From the NCBI GenBank assembly GCA_019634795.1, contig JAHCAR010000025.1:1-36053 (forward strand): 36,053 nt of DNA. The letters run 5' to 3'. The notes below the pieces were generated by a model. That model saw nothing but the letters and a program-made list of their open reading frames with translations. It was not told the DNA's origin and ran no database searches. This document shows, piece after piece, positions 1,133-34,747 of this stretch (the stretch's first letter is position 1; each line of letters starts with the position of its first letter). This stretch comes from Dokdonella sp. GTDB lineage: Bacteria > Pseudomonadota > Gammaproteobacteria > Xanthomonadales > Rhodanobacteraceae. The position numbers and the translations under genes are program-made.

Positions 1133-1612
1133 ATGGATTTGCGCAAGATCAAGAAGCTCATCGATCTGCTCGAGGAATCGAACCTCGCCGAACTCGAGAT
1201 CAAGGAGGGCGAGGAAATCGTCCGCCTGTCGCGGTATCCGAAGAACATGGCGCCGACCTACACGGCACCACCATCGGCCGGACCGGCCGCCGTGCAGGTC
1301 TCCGCGCCGGCCGCGGCGAGCCCGGCGCCGAGCGAGCCGGAAACCACGGCCTCCTCGCCATCGAAGGACCTGCCACCCGGGACCACGGTGTGCTCGCCGA
1401 TGGTCGGCACGTTCTACGCCTCGGCGAATCCCGACGCGCCGCCGTTCGTCAGCGTCGGCCAGAAGGTCAAGGCCGGCGACACCCTCGGCATCATCGAAGC
1501 GATGAAGATGTTCAACCAGATCGAAGCCGAAGTTTCCGGCACCGTACTCGCCGTACTCGCCGAAAGCGGCCATCCGGTCGAGTTCGACCAGCCGCTATTT
1601 GTGATTGGTTGA
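1133..1612 (+). CDS. accB: Biotin carboxyl carrier protein of acetyl-CoA carboxylase
   Basis: Carries the biotin that AccC carboxylates and AccA/AccD use to make malonyl-CoA. The product is 159 aa. The N-terminus [20 protein letters not shown] is typical. A Pro/Ala-rich linker (about residues 45-80) leads to the biotinyl domain, with EAMKM placing the biotinylated lysine at residue 125. The ATG at 1133 is preceded by AGGTGA at 1122-1127. A GTG at 1124 lies inside that Shine-Dalgarno and would only add three residues, so 1133 is the better start. In related bacteria accC follows within a few bases; here a 435-bp heptad-flanked cassette has come between them, starting 6 bp after the accB stop. 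Confidence 0.96.
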
Positions 1613-1618
1613 AGGGCC

Positions 1619-2053
1619 GGGAATGGAGAATGGGGAATGGGGAATCGTTCAAGCGGGCGCACGAGCGATTGGAAGTCTGGCAGGAGGCGATGCAGCTGGT
1701 GGAAATGGTCTATGTCGCGACAGCAACGTTTCCCGCGGAGGAACGTTTTGGCTTGACCGCGCAGATCCGGCGGTCTGCAGTCAGCGTCCCGTCGAACATC
1801 GCGGAAGGCGCTGCGCGGCGTTCGACTCCCGAATATCTCCGGTTTCTTTCAATCGCACGCGGATCGTTGTCCGAAATGTCGACGCAACTGCAAATTGCGG
1901 CCCGGCTCGGCTACATGAAGCCGATACCTGACGTCGATGCCCTGGTTGACCGCGTTTTCGCCAGACTCACAGCTTTGATGAACGCCCTGAAAAAGCGTGG
2001 AGACTCATGATGCGAGCTTCAAAACCATTCCCCATTCTCCATTCCCCATTCCC
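1619..2053 (+). mobile_element. Heptad-flanked cassette carrying a four-helix-bundle gene
   Basis: Bounded on the left (1619-1646) by four 7-bp units, GGGAATG, GAGAATG, GGGAATG, GGGAATC, and on the right (2026-2053) by four units, CATTCCC, CATTCTC, CATTCCC, CATTCCC. The two ends are inverted repeats of about 28 bp and are continued inward by GTT (1647-1649) against AAC (2023-2025). The body is one four-helix-bundle gene. It starts 6 bp after the accB stop and ends on the base before the accC ATG. Two short relatives lie at 8412-8518 and 9798-9899. No transposase or target-site duplication is visible, so mobility is inferred from the repeated structure and from the interruption of a normally tight accB-accC pair. 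Confidence 0.75.
1630..2010 (+). CDS. Four-helix-bundle protein (23S rRNA intervening-sequence S23 family)
   Basis: A 126-aa protein. [46 protein letters not shown] and [20 protein letters not shown] are the conserved blocks of the small all-helical family first known from ORFs inside 23S rRNA intervening sequences; the diversity-generating-retroelement accessory protein Avd has the same fold. Its biochemical role is not established. The ATG lies inside the second left heptad, so the first residues (MGNGES) are read from the repeat itself, which acts as start region as well as boundary. No clear Shine-Dalgarno precedes it, other than the GGAG-like heptads. The stop overlaps a following small frame as TGATG. 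The family assignment is strong and the start is approximate. Confidence 0.85.
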
Positions 2054-2060
2054 ATGCTAG
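2007..2060 (+). CDS. Possible 17-aa coupling peptide ahead of accC
   Basis: A small frame starts at ATGATG (2007/2010), overlapping the four-helix-bundle stop, behind GGAG at 1999-2002. It runs through the right heptad array and stops with TAG at 2058-2060, four bases into accC. It reads [17 protein letters not shown]. It could deliver ribosomes to the accC ATG, which has no Shine-Dalgarno of its own. A frame in the 8412-8518 element is arranged the same way ahead of purD and reads the same FxILHSPFP pattern. Expression is inferred only. The heptads contain no stop codon in any frame, so an open frame here is not by itself strong evidence. Confidence 0.35.
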
Positions 2061-3421
2061 ACAAAGTCGTCATCGCCAATCGCGGCGAAATCGCGTTGCG
2101 TATCCTGCGTGCCTGCCACGTGCTCGGGATCAAGACCGTGGCCGTGCATTCGACGGTCGATCGCAACCTCAAGCATGTCGGCATGGCCGACGAGTCGGTC
2201 TGCATCGGTCCGGCGCCAGCTTCGGAGAGTTACCTCAACGTGCCGGCGATCATCGCCGCGGCCGAGGTCACCGATGCCCAGGCCATCCATCCCGGCTACG
2301 GCTTTCTCTCGGAAAACGCCGATTTCGCCGAGCGCGTCGAGCAGTCCGGCTTCATCTTCATTGGGCCGCGTGCCGAGACGATTCGCCTGATGGGCGACAA
2401 GGTCGAGGCGATCCGCGCGATGAAGGAAGCCGGCGTGCCCTGCGTGCCCGGTTCGGGCGGCCCGCTCGGCGAGGACATGGCCGAGAACACGCGCATCGCG
2501 CGGGACATCGGCTATCCGGTCATCATCAAGGCAGCCGGCGGCGGCGGTGGGCGCGGCATGCGCGTCGTCCACACCGAGGCCCACCTCGGCAATGCGATCT
2601 CGATGACCAAGACCGAGGCCAAGGCCGCGTTCGGCAACGACCAGGTCTACATGGAGAAATTCCTCGAGAATCCGCGCCACGTCGAGATCCAGGTCCTCGC
2701 CGACGGCCAGGGCAGCGCGATCCATCTCGGCGAGCGCGACTGTTCGATGCAGCGACGCCACCAGAAGGTCGTCGAGGAGGCGCCGGCCCCCGGCATCACC
2801 GAGGAGCAGCGCCAGGCCATCGGCAAGGTCTGCGTCGAGGCCTGCCTGCGCATCAATTATCGCGGTGCCGGCACCTTCGAATTCCTCTACGAGGATGGCC
2901 GCTTCTACTTCATCGAGATGAACACGCGCATCCAGGTCGAGCATCCGGTCACCGAGATGATCACCGGCGTCGACCTGATCCGCGAACAACTGCTGATCGC
3001 CGCCGGCGAGAAGCTGTCGATCCGCCAACAGGACATCCGCATCACTGGCCACGCCATCGAGTGCCGCATCAATGCCGAGGATCCGGACACCTTCATGCCG
3101 AGCCCGGGTACGGTCAAGCGCTTCCATGCCGCCGGCGGTCCCGGCGTGCGCACCGATACGCACATCTACGACGGCTACCGCATCCCGCCGAACTACGATT
3201 CGATGATCGGCAAGCTGATCGTGCACGGCCGCGACCGCGACACCGCGGTCGCGCGCATGCGCAACGCGCTGGCCGAAGTGGTCATTGAAGGGGTCAAGAC
3301 CAACCTGCCCCTGCAGATGCGGATCATGGGCGATCGCGGTTTCCAGGCCGGTGGCATGAACATCCACTATCTCGAAAAGCGCATGGCCGAGGCCAAGGAA
3401 AAGTCGATCGGCCTGACCTAG
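2054..3421 (+). CDS. accC: Acetyl-CoA carboxylase, biotin carboxylase subunit
   Basis: ATP-grasp enzyme that carboxylates the biotin of AccB with bicarbonate. The product is 455 aa, close to the usual 445-450. [20 protein letters not shown] is the biotin-carboxylase N-domain start. The glycine-rich ATP loop [11 protein letters not shown] is near residue 165, and [20 protein letters not shown] near 288 holds catalytic and metal-binding residues. The ATG follows the last CATTCCC heptad directly, and the 28 bp before it contain no purine-rich ribosome binding site. Translation must be coupled, or start at an in-frame GTG at 1997 that would add 19 residues partly encoded by heptads (ending IPHSPFPIP). 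It ends in an 8-bp tandem repeat, convergent with the oxygenase gene. Confidence 0.96.
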
Positions 3422-3448
3422 CGTCCTAGCGTCCTGGCGTCCTAGCGA
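3417..3448. repeat. Four tandem 8-bp units (CCTAGCGT) between convergent genes
   Basis: The units are CCTAGCGT, CCTAGCGT, CCTGGCGT and CCTAGCGA. The first supplies the TAG of accC (3419-3421) and the last supplies the TAG of the minus-strand oxygenase (3442-3444). The whole 20-bp space between the two stop codons is made of this repeat. Confidence 0.9.
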
Positions 3449-8411: not shown

Positions 8412-8518
8412 GGGAATGGGGAATAGAGAATCGGGAATGGTCAGGAGCAGAGCATGAAACTCACAGATCTTGGCTGCGCGATGCTTTTTCCATTCTCCAT
8501 TCTCCATTCCCCATTCCC
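8412..8518 (+). mobile_element. Short heptad-flanked element between purH and purD
   Basis: The left array 8412-8439 is GGGAATG, GGGAATA, GAGAATC, GGGAATG. The right array 8491-8518 is CATTCTC, CATTCTC, CATTCCC, CATTCCC. The 51-bp interior (8440-8490) has no four-helix-bundle sequence. The arms can pair over 28 bp with two mismatches and one G-U. The outer flank CC before the left array is shared with the other two copies. I read it as a gene-less relative of the 1619-2053 cassette. It carries AGGAG and an ATG that open a small frame ending on the purD start. Confidence 0.75.
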
Positions 8519-8528: not shown

Positions 8529-9805
8529 AAATCCTCGTTGTCGGCGGCGGCGGCCGCGAACATGCACTGGCCTGGAAACTGGCCCAGTCCAGGCGCGTGA
8601 CCGAGGTGGTGGTGGCACCGGGAAATGCCGGCACGGCGCACGAGCCGCGCATGCGCAACGCCGATGTCGCGGTCGACGACATCGACGGCCTGCTCGAGCT
8701 GGCGCGGCGCGAGTCGATCGACCTGACCGTGGTTGGTCCGGAAATTCCGCTCGTGCTCGGCGTCGTCGACCGCTTCCGAGCCGCCGGCCTGGCCTGTTTC
8801 GGACCGCGTCGCATCGCCGCGCAGCTGGAAGGATCCAAGGCCTATGCCAAGGCCTTCCTCGCCCGCCACAACATCCCGACCGCGCGGCACGCCGTGTTCA
8901 GCGACCTCAACCAGGCCCTGGCCCATGTGCGCAAGCATGGCGCGCCGATCGTCATCAAGGCCGATGGCCTCGCTGCGGGCAAGGGCGTGGTCGTTGCGTT
9001 GACCCTCGGCGACGCCGAGCAGGCGCTGCACGACATGCTCGGCGCGCACTCGCTCGGCGATGCCTCGGCGCGCGTGGTCATCGAGGAATTCCTTGAAGGC
9101 GAAGAGGCCAGCTACATCGTCATTTCCGACGGCCAGAACGCGCTGCCGATGGCGACCAGCCAGGACCACAAGCGCGTCGGCGAGGCAGATACCGGACCCA
9201 ACACGGGTGGCATGGGCGCCTATTCGCCGGCACCCGTGGTGACCCCCGAAGTCGATCGCCGCATCATGGACGAAGTGATCCGACCGACTCTTGCCGGCAT
9301 GGCCGCCGAAGGCGCGCCGTTCATCGGCTTCCTCTATGCCGGCCTGATGATCGACCGCAACGGCGCACCGAAGGTCATCGAATTCAACGTGCGCTTCGGC
9401 GATCCGGAAACCCAGCCGATCATGCTGCGCCTGCAATCGGACCTGGTCGAACTGATCGAATCGGCACTGGCCGGTCGCCTCAAGGGCACGCAGGTGCAAT
9501 GGGATCCGCGACCCGCGATCGGCGTGGTCATGGCCGCGCACGGCTATCCAGGCAAGGTTCGCGGCGGCGATCCGATCGACGGCCTCGACAGCGACTTCGG
9601 CAAGGACACCAAGGTATTCCACGCCGGTACGCGCGAGCGCGATGGCAAGGTGGTGACCGCCGGTGGTCGCGTGCTCACGGTCTGCGCCCTCGGCAAGGAC
9701 ATCGGCGCCGCCCGCGAACGCGCCTATGCGGCACTGGCGAAGCTACGCTTCGACGGCGCCTTCCATCGGCGCGACATCGGCCATCGCGCGCTCAGCCGGG
9801 AATAG
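8525..9805 (+). CDS. purD: Phosphoribosylamine-glycine ligase
   Basis: ATP-grasp enzyme making GAR from phosphoribosylamine and glycine, the second step of purine synthesis. The product is 426 aa (E. coli 429). MKILVVGGGGREHALAWKLA is the N-domain. The ATP-grasp loop IKADGLAAGKGVVVA is near residue 145. TGPNTGGMGAYSPAPV and EFNVRFGDPETQPIM are diagnostic. The start is fixed by the family N-terminus. The bases before it come from a heptad element with no Shine-Dalgarno, and a leader frame ends there as ATGA. The stop TAG (9803-9805) is read from the first heptads of the next element, so both ends of purD touch element copies. Confidence 0.97.
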   Translation: MKILVVGGGGREHALAWKLAQSRRVTEVVVAPGNAGTAHEPRMRNADVAVDDIDGLLELARRESIDLTVVGPEIPLVLGVVDRFRAAGLACFGPRRIAAQLEGSKAYAKAFLARHNIPTARHAVFSDLNQALAHVRKHGAPIVIKADGLAAGKGVVVALTLGDAEQALHDMLGAHSLGDASARVVIEEFLEGEEASYIVISDGQNALPMATSQDHKRVGEADTGPNTGGMGAYSPAPVVTPEVDRRIMDEVIRPTLAGMAAEGAPFIGFLYAGLMIDRNGAPKVIEFNVRFGDPETQPIMLRLQSDLVELIESALAGRLKGTQVQWDPRPAIGVVMAAHGYPGKVRGGDPIDGLDSDFGKDTKVFHAGTRERDGKVVTAGGRVLTVCALGKDIGAARERAYAALAKLRFDGAFHRRDIGHRALSRE

Positions 9806-9899
9806 GGAATGGGGAATGGGGAATGGTTCAAGCGGAGCGCGCTTCGCCCCTGCCTTTGTCTCTGCTCTTGCCTTTAACCATTCCCCATTCCCCATTCCC
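9798..9899 (+). mobile_element. Short heptad-flanked element after purD
   Basis: The left array 9798-9825 is GGGAATA then three GGGAATG; the right array 9879-9899 is three CATTCCC. Bases 9805-9828 and 9876-9899 form a perfect 24-bp inverted repeat. After the left array comes GTTCAAGCGG, identical to the 10 bp at the same position in the gene-bearing cassette (1647-1656). This indicates an internally deleted copy. Its left array supplies the purD stop codon, and its right end lies 4 bp from the stop of the convergent RsbW-like gene. As RNA the stem could protect or end transcripts, although no T-tract follows. Confidence 0.78.
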
Positions 9900-12463: not shown

Positions 12464-12912
12464 GCGCGCCTTTCCTTCCCCCTCGGGAGAAGGATCTAAC
12501 CCGCGCTCTGCAACGCGCCTTTCCTTCTCCCCTTGGGAGAAGGTGCCGAAGGCGGATGAGGGTCCGTGCGAAGCGCGATATCGACGCCGCGGCGTACCCT
12601 CATCCGGCGCTGCGCGCCACCTTCTCCCGGCGGGAGAAGGGTCTAATCCGCGCTCCGCGCCGCGCCTTTCCTTCTCCCCTTGGGAGAAGGTGCCGAAGGC
12701 GGATGAGGGTCCGTGCGAAGCGCGATATCGACGCCACGGCGTACCCTCATCCGGCGCTGCGCGCCACCTTCTCCCGGCGGGAGAAGGATCTAACCCGCGC
12801 TCCGCGGCGCGCCCTTCCTTCTCCCCCTGGGAGAAGGTGCCGAAGGCGGATGAGGGTCCGTGCGAAGCGCGATATCGACGCCACGGCGTACGCTCATCCG
12901 GCGCTGCACGCT
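12464..12912. repeat. Tandem array with 147-bp period built from hairpins
   Basis: Units begin at 12514, 12661 and 12808 (exactly 147 bp apart), preceded by a degenerate partial unit at 12464. Each unit opens with the hairpin CCTTCTCCC, loop CTT, GGGAGAAGG and closes with CCTTCTCCC, loop GGC, GGGAGAAGG. Between them GGATGAGGGT and ACCCTCATCC form a further inverted pair around a 31-bp core holding GATATC. The last unit lacks its closing hairpin. The stretch 12450-12985 contains no gene; frames open through it are repeat artefacts. Relatives of the hairpin occur near 22484, 34295 and 34520. Confidence 0.9.
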
Positions 12913-22527: not shown

Positions 22528-22578
22528 GAAAAGATGGTGATGGCGCAATCTGGGATGTCACTCCCGCTGGCGCGCAAA

Positions 22579-23285
22579 CCCCGTTCGTGCTGAGCGTAGC
22601 GCAGCGAAGTCGAAGTATGGACGGCAACCCGCGCGAACCACGCACCCCTTGGGGATTGGCCCACCGAAGCGTTCCCGATCATGGTTCGACAGGCTCAGCA
22701 CGAACGGGAATGGACCCGACGCACGCGAAAAACCCCGTTCGTGCTGAGCGTAGCGCAGCGAAGTCGAAGTATGAACGGCAACCCGCGCGAACCACGCACC
22801 ACTCGGACCTTGGTCCACCGAAGCATTCCCGATCATGGTTCGACCGGCTCACCACGAACGGGAATCGGCTTGTCGCACACGAAAAACTCCGTTCGTGCTG
22901 AGCGTAGCGCAGCGCAGCGAAGTCGAAGCATGAACGGCAACCCGCGCAAACCACGCACCCCCTGGGTCCTGGTCCACCGAAGCATTCCCGATCATGGTTC
23001 GACCGGCTCACCACGAACGCGAATGGACCCGGCGCACGCGAAAAACCCCCGTTCGTACTGAGCGTAGCGCAGCGAAGTCGAAGCATGAACGGCAACCCGC
23101 CACAAACCCCGTTCGTCCTGAGCGTAGCGCAGCGAAGTCGAAGGATGGACGGCAGCTCGCGGAAAATACGCCCGTGCCCTCATCACCGGCGGGGTAAGAC
23201 TCCGGGTCCGTCAATGGACGACCTCGTCGTCCCCTTCCACCGAAGCATTCCCGATCATGGTTCGACAGGCTCACCAGAACCGGGG
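22579..23285. repeat. Tandem array of 154-160-bp REP-like units
   Basis: Units start with CCCGTTCGTGCTGAGCG near 22579, 22733, 22887 and 23047, and a short one near 23106. Each has the core GAGCGTAGCGCAGCGAAG, a CGGCAACCCGCGCGAACC segment, a CCACCGAAGCATTCCCG segment and a closing GGTTCGACAGGCTCA (or GGTTCGACCGGCTCA) arm that is partly complementary to the opening arm. The third copy has an extra GCAGC. A partial 3' unit closes the array at 23240-23285. No gene is present; open frames here are read from the repeat. Confidence 0.9.
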
Positions 23286-34067: not shown

Positions 34068-34747
34068 AAGCTCACAACATTCGGATCAGCCACACCAGCT
34101 TATTGATTCGCCCCACAAATAGAAACGAGCACGTACGCTCCAATCACGAAACACCCCAACCGTTCGCCCCGAACGCAGCGCAGCCGAAGCCCCCCCGCGA
34201 CCCCCACCGTTCGTCCCCGGATCGTAGTCCGGGGCAGGCTCTGAGCGTAGCGCAGCGAAGTCGAAGGACAATTTCCGAACAACCCAACCCCGAATGCCTC
34301 TCCCGCCGGCGGGAGAGGCTGCCGACAGGCTGGTGACGAGTCCATGGATGGACTCGGTAGAGCTACGCAGGAGCAGTCGCCGAGGGTGGACGCGCGGAGC
34401 GAAAATCCCAGGATCAAAAGCCCACCCTCATCCCCCTCCGGGACTTGAACTCGCACCATCCCTGGCGCTCGCCCTCGCGGGCAGCTCCGCTGCGCAAAAC
34501 GGCAATCCTGCCGTTTGGTCTCCCGCCAGCGGGAGAAGGAACAACAAGAGCTCCTCACTTCCATTCGTCCCCGGATCGCAGTCCGGGGCAGGCTCTGAGC
34601 GCGGCCCAACAAAATCAAAGGACGGCCTACGCCCCCCACCGTTCGTCCTGAGCGTAGCGCAGCGAAGTCGAAGGACCACTACCCCCACCATTCGCCCTGA
34701 GCACAACAAAGCGAAGTCGAAGGACCCGCACCCCCACCCCACCCAAA
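34068..34747. repeat. Composite REP region between cpsB-like and vanZ-like genes
   Basis: 680 bp without a gene. The core GAGCGTAGCGCAGCGAAG seen in the 22.6-23.2 kb array recurs near 34243 and 34650, with a decayed copy (GAGCACAACAAAGCGAAG) near 34700. A CCCCGGA...TCCGGGG hairpin insert sits inside two copies (near 34215 and 34572). The CTCTCCCGCC-GGCGGGAGAG hairpin is near 34300, and a CTCCCGCCAGCGGGAGAAGG relative near 34520. The + strand is markedly poor in G from about 34680 on. The cpsB-like promoter must lie in or before this region; I could not identify it. Confidence 0.85.

Follow-up and report, generated by a model that had tools for sequence, protein, structure and literature searches.

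The 36,053-nt window, that is, the whole stretch of DNA analysed here, comes from the genome of a Dokdonella sp. (G000) and carries a gene of the 23S-rRNA-IVP (S23) protein family (TIGR02436/PF05635; hereafter IVP) between accB and accC. The gene is enclosed by two arrays of a 7-bp unit in inverted orientation, and two further heptad hairpins that hold no gene lie downstream in the same window (Table 1).

Table 1. Genes and heptad elements in the window (feature, positions, strand, evidence or remarks)
accB, upstream neighbour	1133..1612	+	stop 1610-1612; TIGR00531 E 4e-51
left arm, ~4 units GGGAATG	1619..1649, tandem part 1619-1646	+	inverted-repeat search + TRF
IVP (S23) four-helix-bundle gene, 126 aa	1630..2010	+	profiles TIGR02436, PF05635; structure match 2gsc
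right arm, inverted copy of left arm, CATTCCC units, abuts accC start codon	2023..2053	-	
accC, downstream neighbour, directly after right arm	2054..3421	+	TIGR00514 E 1e-228
gene-less heptad hairpin between purH and purD	8412..8518	.	arms 8412-8439, 8491-8518; RNA fold z -6.4
gene-less heptad hairpin, 3' end of purD	9798..9899	.	arms 9798-9825, 9879-9899; RNA fold z -8.4

The original prediction had described heptad arrays around an S23/IVS-family gene, placed exactly between two normally adjacent genes and with its ATG inside the left array, and the sequence searches bear this description out. The arms are 31 nt long, 373 nt apart and 90% complementary, with a perfect sub-arm of 22 nt (1619-1640 with 2025-2046, 100% complementary), and TRF assigns both a period of 7 with copy numbers of 3.9 and 4.1. 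A three-unit array pattern with up to two mismatches matches 11 times in the window, whereas 100 dinucleotide shuffles average 0.01 matches. When the cassette is folded as RNA the arms pair (z -4.0), none of 100 shuffles being equally stable, and the two gene-less hairpins likewise fold better than their shuffles. The observation of an IVP cassette at this locus is confirmed. At its right end, no purine-rich ribosome-binding site is visible before the accC ATG (2023-2056), because the right arm places a pyrimidine-rich stretch there; such a site is present at several empty accB-accC junctions of relatives, for example in G004 and G099.

Membership of the encoded protein in the family is clear from both TIGR02436 (E 7e-34; 116.3 bits for a cut-off of 24) and PF05635, 23S_rRNA_IVP (E 6.5e-35; 120 bits for a cut-off of 33.8). 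Its closest solved structure is 2gsc (XCC0516 of Xanthomonas campestris; E 2e-49), a pentamer of four-helix bundles according to the text of the structure paper. Residues 3-126 of the query (the translation of 1624-2007) align with residues 1-126 of the chain, and the alignment thus starts at the in-frame ATG at 1630-1632 within the left array. We take this ATG as the likely start codon; it is graded likely rather than proven because the reading frame is open upstream of 1630 through accB (ORF 1102-2010). In pairwise comparisons, dN/dS of IVP was 0.02-0.18 in 10 of 11 pairs and 0.68 in the remaining one, with dS saturated in some, and by this measure the protein is under purifying selection in the ten. 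The source genome, an assembly of 3.87 Mb in 51 contigs that is 85% complete, holds one TIGR02436 gene. IVP relatives occur on 40 of 72,556 plasmid records, many of them from cyanobacteria, in which heptameric repeats are well known, and on none of 50,697 phage records.

The heptads are not confined to the cassette. In the source genome, the three-unit pattern with up to one mismatch gives 224 matches, counted with overlaps (108 + 116), and the reversed-pattern control none. Inspection of every site listed by this search, counting arms of three units or more, resolved 43 in forward and 45 in reverse orientation; they form 39 one-to-one inverted pairs at the 49 sites sampled and leave 4 forward and 6 reverse arms unpaired. 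The original prediction's view of the cassette as one isolated mobile unit has to be corrected in the light of this count. The spacers of 37 pairs measure 24-173 nt, one is ~322-326 nt, and one, of 373-379 nt, is the IVP cassette itself; judged by spacer length, and for the ~326-nt spacer from its printed ends only, no pair encloses a gene other than IVP. The printed ends of the ~322-326-nt pair (L008:1132-1520) hold a second, nested inverted repeat. The inner ends of 38 of the inverted pairs share an AAGC/AGAGC-like sequence, AGAGC being present in 21 of 76 ends for 1.1 expected, and the outer flanks often end in GCC (19 and 16 of 38 on the two sides). Direct flank repeats of at least 3 nt occur at 4 of these 38 pairs, compared with 2.6 expected by shuffling; because target-site duplication is thus at chance level, the elements lack this mark of an insertion sequence or classical MITE.

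The sites of the two gene-less elements of the window were compared among congeners. The purH-purD site holds a heptad pair in all five congeners compared, and the elements of G000 and G059 there are built of different units and have cores that cannot be aligned. The site at the end of purD is filled in four congeners and empty in G110. Since the left arm of the element at 9798-9899 supplies the purD stop codon (9803-9805), the insertion has evidently rewritten the C-terminus of purD relative to G110.

The original prediction had proposed a search for empty accB-accC sites in close relatives, and these turned out to be frequent. The junction could be parsed in 109 of the 147 genomes of the window's family, G132 and 37 others falling outside the count; it is empty in 65, occupied by an IVP cassette in 24 and by a cassette remnant in one (G110), and holds gene-less inverted heptad pairs in nine, one-sided arrays in three and other inserts in seven. 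Empty junctions measure 23-53 bp, counted between the stop of accB as parsed and a conserved motif of accC. The 24 cassettes are not all intact, as those of G014 and G060 match TIGR02436 in two pieces. In ten genera some sites are empty and others filled by IVP. The gene-less pairs at this junction, among them those of G032, G044 and G088, are made of GGGCTGA, GGGAACG, GGGACTC or GTGAGCG units, and one is mixed. As a side observation, the junction of G051 carries a 312-bp insert with long terminal inverted repeats and no heptads, which is another element at the same site.

IVP genes were also found, by sequence motif, at carA-carB and upstream of lysS, metF and nrdR. On a tree of 51 IVP genes the arm unit changes 13 times, compared with 29.8 times when shuffled, and the site changes 8 times; the tree was built rapidly and leaves many of its forks open, and clustering by unit is favoured by near-copies. 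Because changes of site are so few, the cassette resembles a gene that keeps to a home site, accompanied by a dispersed population of hairpins, rather than a freely jumping cassette. Between congeners, the similarity of cassettes can lie far above or far below that of their flanks: G059 and G073 share 97.7% identity over the cassette and 83.5% and 90.3% over the flanks, while the values for G000 and G059 are 60.6%, 90.8% and 94.4%. In the first of these comparisons the left boundary falls at the arm and high identity continues on the right for ~170 bp into accC, and homologous recombination of a donor tract therefore explains the replacement as well as transposition does. Across the 24 cassettes, IVP and AccC identities are weakly correlated (Spearman 0.20).

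We then examined arms around IVP genes in other bacteria using two samples. The first consists of 80 IVP relatives from named genomes of many phyla, of which 79 were tested (L052 was dropped for its short flank); its seed pattern derives from the array-encoded N-terminus and so favours GGGAAT relatives among the nearest matches. The second sample is free of this bias: it was selected by profile among 299 genomes of the phylum; the gene is present in 50 of them, and 48 loci were tested (L326 was dropped). Arms with a complementarity score of at least 16 flank 55 of 79 IVP loci in the first sample, whereas none of the 790 control placements made within those loci reaches this score; arrays of period 7 or 8 are present on both sides of 58 of 79 loci and 2 of 790 controls. 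The best period is 7 at 58 of the 79 loci upstream and 64 downstream, and 8 at 10 and 9, respectively; loci with a best upstream period of 8 rather than 7 come from several phyla (L090, L093, L100, L101, L108, L110). In the second sample, 25 of 48 loci score at least 16 and 29 at least 14, with none of 480 controls at either threshold; arrays lie on at least one side of 42 loci (25 of 480 controls) and on both sides of 26 (8 of 480). The link between arrays and TIGR02436 genes, which the original prediction had suggested looking for in related genomes, thus extends well beyond the source genome. Because 11 of the 48 loci score below 12, a finding that counts against the gene as driver of the arrays, the pattern is common, not universal.

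The unit itself varies widely among IVP loci (e.g., GTGAGGA, GGGATAG, TTCTCAG, GGTCGTA, GAGGGTA), and left and right arms vary together: the mean score is 19.3 within loci and 8.9 (sd 0.33) when arms are permuted between loci in the first sample, and 17.9 against 9.1 (sd 0.49) in the second. The original prediction had stated what would refute it, in part heptads spread genome-wide without any tie to this gene family. The genome-wide spread is real, as the 39 pairs attest; the missing tie is not, given the arms at IVP loci. None of 171 IVP loci carried any of four short rRNA signatures in its surroundings, a weak negative, since drafts often lose rRNA operons and some flanks span no more than 400 nt.

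Array abundance also follows the presence of the gene. In the panel of 147 genomes from 26 genera of the window's family, 52 have a TIGR02436 gene, and 36 of these are array-rich (at least 10 GGGANT arrays per genome) compared with 20 of the 95 without it (odds ratio 8.4, Fisher p 1.5e-8); in 20,000 shuffles within genera, none reached 36. The 20 array-rich genomes without IVP, and the 16 of 52 with IVP that are not array-rich, speak against the gene as driver. Two candidate drivers of other kinds were rejected for this family, as neither follows array abundance in the 147 genomes: 40 of 98 genomes with Y1_Tnp and 16 of 49 without it are array-rich (OR 1.4, p 0.37), and for the reverse transcriptase domain RVT_1 the counts are 15 of 42 and 41 of 105 (OR 0.87, p 0.85).

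Beyond abundance, the unit of dispersed gene-less copies tends, as far as the motif counts indicate, to be that of the IVP gene in the same genome. Genomes whose IVP arms are GGGATT have a larger GGGATT share among their arrays than those with GGGAAT arms (8 vs 12 genomes, p 6e-4), with the same direction within genera g1, g18 and g26; this comparison omitted 10 of 30 genomes with mixed, broken or carA-carB-type cassettes (G031, G060, G063, G014, G025, G043, G146, G083, G141, G096). Among 31 genomes of other groups, which represent 31 of the 80 loci hand-picked for differing units, GTGAGG arrays occur elsewhere in the genome in all 9 that have GTGAGG in their IVP arms and in 5 of 22 others. 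GTGAGCG arrays were found in 8 of the 147 family genomes, with 75 matches in G088, 71 in G044, 61 in G032 and 34 in G111; the IVP arms examined are GTGAGCG in G032 and G044 and of a GGGAGT type in G088, and G111 has no IVP match. A dispersed unit that differs from the examined IVP arms is seen in G088, in G009 and in the five GTGAGG-test genomes just mentioned, for example L097 (34 matches). In G121 the unit is not dispersed, its single match being its own IVP arm, which again counts against the gene as driver. The reversed-pattern control, empty in the source genome, is not so in several others (G088 134, G111 34, G130 25 and G026 21 matches); we read these matches as a further heptad family, GGGCTGA, also present at the accB-accC junctions of G111 and G026.

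Several known systems share part of this organisation. The 23S rRNA intervening sequence (IVS) of Coxiella burnetii is described as 428 nt long; its inverted ends form a stem of 28 bp, and it contains heptameric direct repeats together with an S23p ORF (PMC4990558). The cassette resembles it in protein family, length (~430 nt), terminal stem (~28 bp) and heptads near the start codon, and the kinship with intervening sequences put forward in the original prediction is therefore well founded as regards anatomy. The long stem of terminal inverted repeats around an S23p ORF is present (31-nt arms, fold z -4.0). The Dokdonella insert differs from rRNA IVSs in lying between protein genes of an operon, here accB and accC and not in a 23S rRNA gene, and in having gene-less relatives elsewhere; the available sections of the Coxiella article note heptads and stem and mention no dispersed copies (PMC4990558). 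No Rfam family matches in the window. In anatomy and protein the element qualifies as an IVS; in location it does not.

The heptads themselves resemble those that Rehm et al. (2015) described in Xanthomonas (GGGAATC) and Nostoc (GGGGA(C/T)T), in unit class, intergenic position and number of units (~4). In the sections of that article available, these quadruplex-forming repeats are reported to be transcribed, to form G4 in vitro and to be intergenic, with 70 (Xcc) and 75 (Xac) inverted pairs and with 83% of the Xcc repeats found in an unchanged context in Xac; they are regarded as unassociated with mobile elements, and heptameric repeats are found over-represented in many bacterial genomes (PMC4692102). 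The main text, as available, contains no occurrence of S23, intervening, helix bundle, XCC0516, accB or accC (PMC4692102). The TAACTGA heptamers of Beggiatoaceae, cyanobacteria and Bacteroidetes are likewise dispersed, intergenic and patchy in distribution, and horizontal transfer has been suggested for them; they differ in being direct repeats, and hardly any inverted pairs exist in the one genome that was studied (PMC4679880). In the available main text of that article the terms S23, four helix and intervening do not occur (PMC4679880). Within a limited coverage of the open-access literature, we found no report of a link, outside rRNA, between S23/IVP genes and heptad arrays in inverted orientation.

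REPIN-RAYT systems offer the closest working model. In these, as far as the available sections of the source describe, a population of ~100-bp hairpins formed by inverted pairs coexists with a non-duplicating gene that has matching sequence alongside, and types co-diversify (PMC3116915). The source genome too has dispersed hairpins matching those beside its gene (39 pairs), with exceptions to unit matching as given above. The difference lies in the gene, since RAYTs are Y1/HUH enzymes and here a four-helix bundle stands beside arms made of tandem heptads, and Y1_Tnp does not track the arrays. On the reading favoured here, the element would work like a REPIN-RAYT without being one. Avd of diversity-generating retroelements is distantly related in sequence (NF033474 at E 3e-4, a match that falls short of the cut-off). 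The original prediction had noted the absence of a reverse transcriptase, and in agreement the 85%-complete source genome yields no RVT_1 candidate, the enzyme expected of a diversity-generating retroelement.

We propose, as the most likely account, that this locus represents the coding member of a family of heptad hairpins within the genome and a chromosomal counterpart of rRNA IVSs, with a single gene that may serve the whole hairpin population; we regard this proposal as standing about level with its negation. The sequences show anatomy, association, covariation and polymorphism; that the protein acts on the hairpins or spreads them is inferred. Cassette and gene-less hairpins occupy common sites, such as accB-accC, and the comparisons of relatives indicate both empty sites and replacement between congeners. 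In the transcript the arms would pair as one long stem and leave the gene in its loop, like the rRNA IVSs that are cut by RNase III. The IVP protein would recognise heptad hairpins of its own unit and could promote the appearance of copies at further sites or the overwriting of existing ones, a role analogous to that envisaged for the single-copy RAYT of REPINs. Nothing in the data implicates a Y1 transposase or a reverse transcriptase in the copying. A broader reading is tentative, and we would stop somewhat short of betting on it: the IVP family may drive a widespread class of elements in which the gene recognises, and co-diversifies with, the unit of its hairpins and no HUH enzyme or reverse transcriptase is encoded, 23S IVSs being members that landed in rRNA genes.

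The arrays could instead be spread by some other activity, or by slippage and recombination, the IVP gene using them as homology arms or as a protective stem while it moves between strains by homologous recombination. The replacement tract of G059 and G073, which reaches into accC, would fit such a passenger gene, as would the chance-level count of target-site duplications, the many arrays of the 20 IVP-negative genomes and the presence of IVP in G121 without a dispersed unit. We nonetheless consider this unlikely, although deserving of serious weight: by spacer length no gene but IVP lies within the 39 inverted pairs of the source genome, array abundance follows IVP and not Y1_Tnp or RVT_1, and IVP loci of many phyla bear very different units, which is hard to explain if gene and arrays are independent.

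It is also conceivable that the heptads are fixed host elements, acting as G-quadruplexes or RNA hairpins between co-directional genes in the way proposed for Xanthomonas and Nostoc, and that IVP is a host RNA-binding protein acting on their transcripts, with no mobility involved. The transcription, in vitro G4 formation, intergenic placement and conserved Xcc/Xac context reported in the available sections of Rehm et al. (PMC4692102) accord with such a function, and so do the purifying selection on IVP and the strong RNA hairpins formed by the elements. A fixed host role would favour conserved units, however, and for this reason the diversity of units at the orthologous accB-accC site (four gene-less types besides those of the IVP arms) and between congeners with alignable flanks and different units at a given site counts against it, as does the high number of empty junctions; we judge it improbable. 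That period-7 arrays simply arise by slippage anywhere and meet IVP genes by coincidence is barely credible, even given the over-representation of heptameric repeats in many bacterial genomes that the same source reports (PMC4692102). Arms covary, the control placements of both samples gave no complementary arms where IVP loci gave many, and these controls together with the shuffles of the window rule out chance pairing.

These comparisons of sequences suggest a genetic element of an unrecognised kind, made of a gene and its hairpins and related to the inserts of rRNA genes. If true, this would join three matters: what a very widespread hypothetical protein family does, how the heptameric repeats of many bacterial genomes arose, and where rRNA IVSs come from. 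The unit flanking an IVP gene would then predict both the scattered repeats of its genome and the RNA or DNA hairpin that the protein binds.

Other tandem repeats were noted in the window. An 8-bp repeat (CCTAGCGT, 3.9 copies) lies directly at the end of accC (3417-3447), and arrays of long units, apparently belonging to other repeat families, lie at 12484-12911 (147 bp), 22576-23100 (154 bp) and 34633-34738 (49 bp).
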